Below are positions 15,617-48,885 of a stretch of 64,000 nt of DNA, in pieces. Source of the stretch: a virus; IMG/VR virus record IMGVR_UViG_3300027747_001027, positions 1 through 64,000 of that record; one strand, written 5' to 3'. Position 1 is the stretch's first letter, and each line of letters opens with the position of its first letter. Below the pieces are notes generated by a model. That model had not been told where the DNA came from and ran no database searches. It was given only the letters and a program-made list of their open reading frames with translations. The position numbers were made by a program, and so were the translations under genes.

Positions 15617-16804
15617 TTACGAGCAGGTTTGATACAGCGTAGCTGGGCTGCAACGGAGATGCATGATTGCATAACCCCATTCAGTGCGCTTTGGCTGGGA
15701 ACCCTGCATGAACAGAGCGTAAAAGTAACCATTAACACCAAGGATGTTGTTGGCGTTATCTTTGTTGTTAATCCACATGAACTCACCACGATAGTTGACA
15801 GGATCAAATTTCAGGCCGGAACCTGGGCTTGTGATCACTTGAGCAACACGTGAGGTATAGACGTGTGGGTTGTAGATGAAGCTGACTTCATAAGCGGCAG
15901 AGCGGTATGCTGGGTTCACAACAGCCTTGTTGCCAGTGTTAGCTGGGGCAGTAGTGAAGAATGGCACACGGACAAACTCACCACCAACGAAGTTGTAGCG
16001 AGGAGCCTGACGATCAACCAAGTGGACGTATCCGCTGTAGCTGAATGCAGCGCCGAATGGCTTGATAAGCTCGTCAACCTGTGAGGAGAAGCGGAGATCC
16101 TGACGGATATCGGCATTCTGTTTCTTTAGGTAGTTGCTTGTTTCTGGCGAGCAGATTAAACCATACTGTGGCTCACCGTCAACCATTGCATAATGACCCT
16201 CAGCCGCATCACGGGAGAGATCAAGATAGAACTGATCAAGGATACCTTGGTCAAGAGCGTATGCAGGAGCTGCCGCTGGGAAGGCTTGGTTTGATCCACT
16301 TGTGGACATAGCCAAAGTGTCGTTAACGTCTGTGACAACTTTGTTGCCAGCGAGACGAGAGAACTCATCACGATAACGGTTGCTCCAGAACCATTGGCTG
16401 TTCTCTTTGAGAACTTTGACTTCACCTGCGAGCTGCTCTTCAGCTTTCCATGCAGTACGAAGATCGTTCACGCAGAAACCTGGGGAACGGATAGCCGACT
16501 GTTGGAGGTTGTAGCTCTTAAGGGTACGTGCAAACTCAACAACTTGTGGAGTTGGGTTACAAGTGTTGCCGGTCCCATCGTTAGTTCCAACGTCTTCCCA
16601 CGCAGTCGATGATGCGTTAGGAACGGTTGTGCGCTCTTGGATGAGGGTCTGGATGGATTCGCCCATTCCAGCAGGGAATGTGTCTTGTTTGACGAGACGA
16701 TTCCAAGGGTCAGTTGCGATAAGTTTTGCGGAGATCATTTCACCGATACGTCCGGCTTCTTGTTGGAGCTGATTGTTAACATCAGCGAGATTATATTGTG
16801 ACAT
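15617..16804 (-). CDS. Major capsid protein
   Basis: A 395-residue protein between the scaffold gene and a strong terminator, the usual place for the coat protein. Features fitting an HK97-like coat protein are the long N-terminal helix (ADVNNQLQQEAGRIGEMISA), the LICSPETSNYLKKQNADI segment in the middle and the hydrophobic YEVSFIYNPHVYTSRVAQV strand. No homologue is recalled precisely. Its own long leader, with a terminator on each side, allows high separate expression. Confidence 0.75.
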   Translation of the reverse strand: MSQYNLADVNNQLQQEAGRIGEMISAKLIATDPWNRLVKQDTFPAGMGESIQTLIQERTTVPNASSTAWEDVGTNDGTGNTCNPTPQVVEFARTLKSYNLQQSAIRSPGFCVNDLRTAWKAEEQLAGEVKVLKENSQWFWSNRYRDEFSRLAGNKVVTDVNDTLAMSTSGSNQAFPAAAPAYALDQGILDQFYLDLSRDAAEGHYAMVDGEPQYGLICSPETSNYLKKQNADIRQDLRFSSQVDELIKPFGAAFSYSGYVHLVDRQAPRYNFVGGEFVRVPFFTTAPANTGNKAVVNPAYRSAAYEVSFIYNPHVYTSRVAQVITSPGSGLKFDPVNYRGEFMWINNKDNANNILGVNGYFYALFMQGSQPKRTEWGYAIMHLRCSPATLYQTCS

Positions 16805-47190: not shown

Positions 47191-47225
47191 TTGACTTGTT
47201 GAAAATAGTGTATAATATTTTCAAC
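47191..47225 (+). promoter_or_regulatory. Promoter-like site overlapped by a perfect inverted repeat
   Basis: TTGACT (47191-47196) and a perfect TATAAT (47211-47216), though the 14-base spacer is short. A perfect 10-bp inverted repeat, GTTGAAAATA (47198-47207) and TATTTTCAAC (47216-47225), brackets the -10, as an operator would. As RNA it would also fold if transcription began upstream. Confidence 0.55.
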
Positions 47226-47320
47226 ATCTTATTTGAGTTGTCAGAAAACTCATAATGGTAATTTTCCTCATGGTCAAAACCCGTCTTGATATTCTGACTA
47301 TCAAGGCGGGTTTTTCTTTT
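47226..47320 (+). ncRNA. Candidate attenuator or small RNA with complementary hairpin loops
   Basis: Hairpin 1: TGAGTT / AACTCA with loop GTCAGAA (47240-47246). The terminator hairpin (47278-47312) has loop TTCTGAC (47292-47298). The two seven-base loops are perfectly complementary, so a kissing interaction is possible. It could be a short RNA, or a leader regulating read-through into the structured region and the glycosyltransferase operon. Confidence 0.5.
47278..47320 (+). terminator. Strong intrinsic terminator, 14-bp stem
   Basis: AACCCGTCTTGATA pairs with TATCAAGGCGGGTT over 14 positions (one G-T), loop TTCTGAC, followed by TTTTTCTTTT. Confidence 0.9.
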
Positions 47321-47700
47321 AGTATGAAGCCTAACGGCAGTTCCCTCAAAAGAGCCTGTAAGATGAGCGTAGCACGGCGGGGTTCTATCCCCTGACTATG
47401 GAGAATACCTGTAAAGGACTCCCGTGTGAAGGAGAGGGGTTGGGAGGGTTAAAAGACTACCAACTTAAAACGCTGTTTCCGCAGGGAGGCAGACTGCGAA
47501 TCAAGCTGGCTCTCACTGAAAGGTGTAAACTAAAGTAAGCCTCGGTTAAGGACGACCTCTGGGCGAGTGATTCTAAAAATGCATACGATGGCTCCATACG
47601 AGGAAGTAATGTGTTTAGCAGTTTCTTTCCATAGGAACTGCTATGCTCCGATCTCACCACCAAAGAAGCATTGTATTATATACCCTATCAAACCCAATAA
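47321..47700 (+). ncRNA. Candidate large structured non-coding RNA region
   Basis: About 380 bases with no convincing protein frame and with clearly higher G+C than its surroundings. Many local stems can be drawn: GGGG/CCCC at 47380-47393, GGAG...CCT/AGG...CTCC at 47400-47422, GTTGG/CCAAC near 47440-47463, CTCG/CGAG at 47541-47567 and AGCAGTTTC/GGAACTGCT at 47617-47642. It lies between the terminator and the rightward glycosyltransferase gene. Large phage RNAs (ROOL or GOLLD types) and group I introns are candidates I could not confirm. Confidence 0.4.
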
Positions 47701-47763
47701 CCACTATATCCTACTAAGATATACCTTGTCGGATATAAGAAACATGATACAATTTAACGAACA

Positions 47764-48885
47764 ATGAAACACCGATTCCACGTATTGTCACTTCCTCACA
47801 CCGTAACTAGCAAGGAGTTTAACGCTTGCGCGTACACGCAAAAAGTATTAAAATTCTCAAAAATGATGACCGAGCGAGGTCACGAAGTTATACACTACGG
47901 ACATGAAGACTCTGATCTACAATGTAGCGAACACGTCACCGTACTTACCAATAACGACTTTCGAGAGAGCTATGGGTCACATGACTGGCGCAAGACCTTT
48001 TTTAAGTTCAATACCAACGACCATGCGTATCGTAAGTTTTACGACAATGCTATCCGTGAAATATCCGTACGGAAACGGAGTCACGACTTTATCCTGCCCT
48101 TCTGGGGTTCTGGCGTACGTCACATCTGTGATGCCCATCAAGACTTGATTTGCGTTGAACCAGGCATTGGATATGCTGGTGGACACTGGGCTAGGTGGAA
48201 AGTTTGGGAGAGCTATGCAATCTACCATGCTTATTGTGGGCTTAAGAATGTTGGTCAGTGCAATCAAGATTGGTATGACGTTGTTATTCCAAACTATTTC
48301 GATGTCGAAGATTTTGACTTCAATTCTGCCAAAGAAGATTACTTTCTCTATCTTGGCCGAGTATATAACGGAAAAGGAGTTGATATTGCCATCCAAGCTA
48401 CTGAACGAGCAGGCGTGAAGCTGGTCATTGCCGGACAGAAAGAAGAAGGATACAAGCTTCCTAACCACGTTGAATATGTAGGCTACGCAGACGTTCCAAC
48501 GAGAAAGAAACTGATGTCTAATGCCAAGGCATCGTTCCTACCAAGTATGTATGTAGAGCCATTCGGTGGAGTCCAGATCGAGAACCTACTATCCGGCACT
48601 CCTACGATTACTACAGACTGGGGTAGCTTCGCGGAAAACAATCTACATGGAATCACTGGCTATCGCTGTAGAACGATGGGCGACTTCGTGGATGCTATCA
48701 AAAACATTTACCGGATAAACCCATACGATTGCCGTAAGTTTGGCGAGAACTTCACATTGGAAAAAGTAGCTCCAATGTATGAAAAGTATTTCAATGATGT
48801 CATGGACGTGTATACTGGTAAGGGCTGGTATGCAGATGGACATAACATTGACGCAATGACACGATTCTACCCCAGCATTCACTAA
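47764..48885 (+). CDS. GT4-like glycosyltransferase, 373 aa
   Basis: GT-B fold. FLYLGRVYNGKGVDIAIQ starts the donor-binding domain (about 198). The family's ExxxFGxxxxE signature is present as VEPFGGVQIENLLSGTP near 270, followed by the nucleotide-sugar-binding ITTDWGSF. The N-terminus MKHRFHVLSLPHTVTSKEFN is the acceptor side. It is the first protein gene of the rightward operon behind the structured leader, co-directional with MazG and deaminase. Possible targets are host glycans or modified DNA bases. Confidence 0.82.
   Translation: MKHRFHVLSLPHTVTSKEFNACAYTQKVLKFSKMMTERGHEVIHYGHEDSDLQCSEHVTVLTNNDFRESYGSHDWRKTFFKFNTNDHAYRKFYDNAIREISVRKRSHDFILPFWGSGVRHICDAHQDLICVEPGIGYAGGHWARWKVWESYAIYHAYCGLKNVGQCNQDWYDVVIPNYFDVEDFDFNSAKEDYFLYLGRVYNGKGVDIAIQATERAGVKLVIAGQKEEGYKLPNHVEYVGYADVPTRKKLMSNAKASFLPSMYVEPFGGVQIENLLSGTPTITTDWGSFAENNLHGITGYRCRTMGDFVDAIKNIYRINPYDCRKFGENFTLEKVAPMYEKYFNDVMDVYTGKGWYADGHNIDAMTRFYPSIH

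Follow-up and report, generated by a model that had tools for sequence, protein, structure and literature searches.

The RNAI/RNAII system of ColE1 uses fully paired loops of ∼7 nt, whose variants stay matched. Among phage RNAs, the pRNA of phi29 has a length of 120–174 nt. In this RNA two complementary loops covary between relatives and pair between molecules (PMC12670572). GOLLD and ROOL carry covarying kissing loops between chains, and these contacts were shown to be intermolecular (PMC12286853). Here we describe a viral locus with two complementary hairpin loops. The window that was analysed is a stretch of 64,000 nt, part of the 67,805-base viral record IMGVR_UViG_3300027747_001027. A sequence-only reading of it had proposed a kissing-loop terminator or attenuator, located at a divergent control point of the genome.

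RESULTS

Two hairpins with complementary loops

The seven-base complementarity on which that reading was built is exact: GTCAGAA (47240–47246) and TTCTGAC (47292–47298) are perfect 7-nt complements, and each forms the loop of a program-predicted hairpin (the parts of the RNA, its promoter and the promoter-like site of the downstream gene all lie on the plus strand of the window). The first hairpin, P1 (47233–47253), shows both-sided changes in 6/7 of its pairs. The second, P2 (47276–47314), is terminator-like with a 16-bp stem and is followed by a U-tract up to position 47320. Folding of the 47220–47330 RNA yielded exactly these two hairpins (z = −3.9; 0/200 shuffles equal). The divergent position is also as described, with minus-strand genes on its left and, on its right and downstream of the RNA, a glycosyltransferase gene on the plus strand (47764–48885). 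Two 7-nt loops match at random with a frequency of about 4^−7, and a lone 7-nt match in one genome is weak evidence by itself.

Loop pairing in related elements

Protein-guided and pattern scans identified at least ∼48 viral contigs that carry the element. The matches listed in a scan for the P3 motif (described below) were mostly chance occurrences in coding DNA; with a stricter scan L255 was the only true element among the new contigs, and the others again look like chance matches in coding DNA. Of the 74 upstream regions chosen initially, an exact 7-mer search found not one (0/74) that contains both GTCAGAA and TTCTGAC. This looked like a refutation, but when the loops were compared in register every element proved to have a complementary pair of its own. 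In total 26 distinct loop pairs occur among the element carriers (25 plus that of L143), with loop–loop helices of 6–10 bp. They include GTCGGA/TCCGAC, GTCACAA/TTGTGAC, GGAAAAG/CTTTTCC and ATCACGG/CCGTGAT, and further ATTACAG/CTGTAAT, GTAGCCA/TGGCTAC and GACACGG/CCGTGTC. Distant members with quite different stems carry loop pairs of 8–10 bp: ACGCAAGA/TCTTGCGT in L099, CTGACGGACT/AGTCCGTCAG in L154, CTTGCGGACT/AGTCCGCAAG in L142 and GGTTGCCCCC/GGGGGCAACC (10 bp) in L143. L142 and L154, whose stems differ, both have 10-bp pairs with compensated differences between the two.

Covariation was quantified in a 30-row alignment (A3), built by joining the helix segments element by element, with N used wherever the loop length differs from 7. 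All 200 of 200 loop-helix cells are paired, 199 as Watson–Crick pairs and one as G-U. Both sides have changed in 76 cells, which do not represent independent events as the rows are related, and every pair of the helix shows both-sided change. The covariation score of the loop helix is 0.995 compared to 0.251 ± 0.032 for shuffled alignments (0/500), and slid partners reach at most 0.234. Among 33 distinct rows parsed by hand, outgroups included, 221/221 loop cells are paired; when loop 2 was dealt out among the sequences, at most 143 paired cells were obtained in 1000 shuffles. In a fully automatic loop parse, which mis-set a few hairpins (L098, L136), complementary runs still averaged 6.05 versus 3.79 for the best of 2000 permutations.

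Relatives that keep the hairpins and lose the loop complementarity were what the sequence-only reading had named as evidence against pairing. Wherever the RNA of an element is intact, we found the loop complementarity kept, an outcome that favours pairing, and the compensatory changes that the same reading had suggested to look for support loop–loop pairing very strongly. With a match in every such element and 26 distinct loop pairs, chance complementarity of the two loops is already refuted, and its probability is practically nil. Judged by covariation, the two loops pair at the RNA level.

The 5′ domain and the RNA bodies

P1 and P2 are part of a larger domain. Its closing helix P0 is formed by CAUCUU (47225–47230), which also marks the presumed RNA 5′ end, and AAGAUG (47360–47365), two strands that lie ∼130 bases apart and enclose P1, P2 and P3. 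P0 is supported by covariation: it is 96.1% paired, with compensatory changes such as CAUUCU/AGAAUG and CAUCCUAA/UUAGGAUG. The hairpin P3 (47316–47352; in order CUUUUAG, UAUGAAGC-UAAC-GGCAGUUCC and CUCAAAAG) has a conserved core and a closing pair that varies between AU, CG, UA and GC among relatives. The 12-bp core of P2 is 99.7% paired and almost invariant, 8/12 of its pairs never varying in the alignment, which suggests a constraint beyond pairing.

The common 5′ domain precedes two exchangeable, unrelated bodies, A and B, both of which covary. The type B body of the window (47367–47646) is closed by GCGUAGC (47367–47373) and GCUAUGC (47640–47646), as seen in an alignment of 18 sequences. 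Both-sided changes occur in 28/96 whole-RNA consensus pairs of these 18 type B RNAs and in 28/54 consensus pairs of the type A RNAs. The minimum free energy fold of 47320–47720 alone gave no signal (z = 0.2); the signal was obtained by alignment folding. The structured RNA spans at least 422 nt (47225–47646), its 3′ end being set by the last conserved helix only, and is apparently non-coding. Taken together, the alignments demonstrate that the P0/P1/P2/P3 domain and the structured bodies exist.

A third, different body was found beside tRNA genes in L143, preceded by a similar 5′ domain that shares the P3 core. The region in question, L143:7060–8000 of a 71.9-kb viral contig, is a large, structured-looking, unmatched RNA region right beside two tRNA genes; in front of it lie a promoter-like sequence, the 10-bp kissing pair, a terminator-like stem and the common P3 core. 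The two ends of record IMGVR_UViG_3300042938_001476 (L008, L088) carry RNAs of different type, A at one and B at the other, whose loops are identical; this arrangement suggests strain-level body swapping or an assembly bubble. The type B body (L100, GCAGGTTCAATCCCTGAC) also contains a hairpin resembling a tRNA T-loop, GGTTCAATCC and variants. T-loop-like hairpins often serve as tertiary docking motifs.

Loop complementarity might also be mimicked at the DNA level, if P1 and P2 were inverted recombinase-like sites with identical cores of 6–8 bp. P2 does resemble a 12-7-12 inverted repeat with a variable core. Moreover, G-U accounts for just 1 of the 200 loop-helix cells; given this near-absence of G-U, a constraint on DNA-level identity is conceivable from the loop helix taken alone. 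However, the arms of P1 and P2 are unlike each other and completely different in L142, L143 and L099, the P1 arms vary with RNA-style compensation including G-U, P0, P3 and the bodies around the two hairpins are RNA-level structures, and the cores are just ∼45 bp apart. We regard a DNA-level signal as very improbable.

Promoter, terminator form and gene context

A promoter scan predicted a sigma70-type promoter at 47191–47218 (−35 TTGACT, 16-nt spacer, −10 TAATAT). In relatives, TTGAC again stands ahead of the element, separated by 16 nt from a −10-like hexamer. The −10 is covered by a 10-bp inverted repeat (GTTGAAAATA..TATTTTCAAC, 47198–47225) that is perfect in the window and imperfect in relatives and is a possible operator. 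For the glycosyltransferase gene the promoter scan gave a separate promoter-like site (47726–47753), and a similar sequence is found upstream of the gene in L003–L005. A conserved stretch that looks non-coding (CCCGCTGTTCCTCTAGCACAGCAATGAACAT..GGCGGGTTAGCTC...) precedes the glycosyltransferase gene in two relatives (L015:5240–5850 and L044:5440–5900); it gave no Rfam match.

In the window P2 is a GC-rich hairpin directly followed by a U-tract and has the form of an intrinsic terminator, and a terminator-grade U-tract after P2 is retained in most members. To this extent the proposed terminator is supported in its form. As an attenuator, the proposal fares less well: P2 lies inside a larger domain, and in ∼20 loci the next downstream gene occupies the opposite strand, leaving no downstream mRNA to be attenuated there. 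Elsewhere the next gene encodes a glycosyltransferase, an HNH-like endonuclease or a deaminase, the glycosyltransferase of the window being co-directional. The opposite-strand neighbours together with the promoter-like site of the glycosyltransferase gene imply that downstream attenuation cannot be the general function, and an mRNA attenuator of the downstream gene was rejected, since a co-directional regulated gene is missing in the ∼20 loci. In L089, L092, L008 and L024, genes resembling HNH-type homing endonucleases were observed either immediately after the RNA or in front of the glycosyltransferase gene.

Given the U-tract that most members preserve, P2 could instead gate read-through into the RNA body. 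According to this explanation P2 and the U-tract would form a working terminator inside the RNA gene and kissing would decide in what proportion two transcripts are made: if the P1 loop paired early with the P2 loop as the latter emerges, this would either delay P2 closure, giving the long RNA, or stabilise P2, giving an RNA of ∼95 nt. Such a gate would be compatible with a structural role of the contact. It is in line with the 16-bp P2 stem plus TTTTTCTTTT and with U-tracts that are found even in the distant members L142, L154 and L143. It also agrees with a lineage (L091, L093, L094, L095) that has lost P3 and the RNA body and also P1 or the loop match, but retains the promoter, P2 and the T-tract without kissing. 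This body-less lineage, which probably goes back to a single event or two in evolution, can be reconciled equally with a gate on read-through and with a structural function. (The P2 and P1 loops of L095 read in one and the same sense, as though the former had undergone inversion.) On the other hand, kissing persists in one clade (L099, L100, L136, L218) though the T-run after P2 is interrupted, ∼20 loci have no downstream gene to regulate, and a gate acting in cis would not predict the rapid concerted loop change described below. A termination gate within the RNA gene appears possible but doubtful.

Concerted change of the loops

Close relatives were compared with respect to differences inside and outside the loops. 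Between L118 and L131, 10/17 loop positions differ compared to 1/126 in the rest of the domain and 0/339 in the 3′ part, at a divergence of the flanking genome of 3.7% (Fisher 8e-11 for the loop excess). L101 and L103 differ at 6/16 loop positions versus 1/122, and L101/L102 and L110/L128 follow the same trend as L118/L131; for L097/L098 the fast loop change fell short of significance. It is significant in 4/5 close pairs tested, two of the four sharing L101. The loops outpace the genome background, and neutral compensation alone should hence not suffice. We read the fast change as selection for new, self-matched loops that avoid cross-reaction with relatives. A special mutational process behind the concerted change is a conceivable alternative.

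The same pattern raises the question of recognition in trans, in which loops pairing between molecules would tell self from related co-infecting phages, like antisense-type immunity or incompatibility RNAs. Loops that diversify on a nearly fixed background and remain self-matched are what selection for orthogonality is expected to produce, and the loops of phi29 pRNA covary similarly (PMC12670572). However, where the 7-mers recur in the window, inspection revealed no matching hairpin context, and a second target was not found there. We consider this type of trans recognition unlikely.

Searches of known families

At Rfam 15 gathering thresholds the window and 20 relatives gave no pRNA, GOLLD or ROOL match and yielded tRNAs only. 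Relaxed E-values added sub-threshold noise, the best match being the trpB motif with 27 bits versus a cutoff of 59. HEARO/omega RNA and group I/II introns, considered on account of the nearby HNH-like genes, were dismissed as no model matched. GenBank phage records contained no DNA match to the window or to the type B, type A or L143 RNAs, and the type B core pattern was not found in the species genome collection. Most of the long minus-strand genes at 15617–46267 of the window, including one for a 2810-aa protein, had no convincing PHROGs/Pfam match; they are presumed to be structural. The phage group is very poorly known.

DISCUSSION

The sequence evidence for the loop–loop contact is about as strong as such evidence can be; the contact evolves fast and stays matched. 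We think it probable that the element encodes a stand-alone structured phage RNA, in whose 5′ domain the loops pair for folding or assembly, with self-recognition as the favoured purpose. This RNA would be transcribed rightwards from its own sigma70-type promoter. Its two loops would form a helix of 6–10 bp inside the P0-closed domain, ahead of the exchangeable body, and the contact would most likely serve folding or assembly of the RNA. Counted against this structural explanation is the strong terminator look that P2 and its U-tract have in most members, which is odd inside a longer RNA. Self-recognition is favoured because the loops diversify together far faster than their surroundings and are always matched within one genome. 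The contact would probably include pairing between RNA copies; pairing within and between molecules leaves an identical sequence signature.

A more far-reaching idea, which we put forward tentatively and hold to be less likely than the general explanation, is that of a new large phage RNA family in which hypervariable, self-matching loops act as a genome-specific barcode. RNA copies would assemble via these loops, selection for orthogonality against co-infecting relatives would drive the rapid concerted change, and one 5′ module would serve at least three bodies.

With intrinsic-terminator attenuators the locus shares a promoter, a leader hairpin and a terminator-like hairpin with a U-tract. 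It differs in that many relatives have no downstream gene to regulate and in that the hairpins are enclosed in a larger RNA domain; an antiterminator alternative, as in attenuators, was not seen here. In ColE1 the contact involves two opposite-strand RNAs, whereas both loops lie on one RNA here. By analogy, the contact is most likely a tertiary or self-assembly contact comparable to those of phi29 pRNA or GOLLD/ROOL. Like phi29 pRNA, the element is a structured phage RNA with two mutually complementary, covarying loops. However, it is at least 422 nt long, its loop helix has 6–10 bp compared to 3–4 bp in pRNA, it matches no family model and no link to a packaging motor emerged. The likeness to GOLLD and ROOL lies in a phage RNA that is large and structured and whose tertiary loop contacts covary, in exchangeable or divergent domains and in the frequent proximity to tRNAs, here seen in L143. 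In contrast to these RNAs, the sequence differs, with no Rfam-model match even at relaxed E-values, and the loop contact is confined to a 5′ module common to several bodies. The RNA would thus resemble pRNA, GOLLD and ROOL at most in its way of working and by the tests made is a member of none of these families; as an undescribed large phage RNA family it would join a very short list, that of GOLLD and ROOL.
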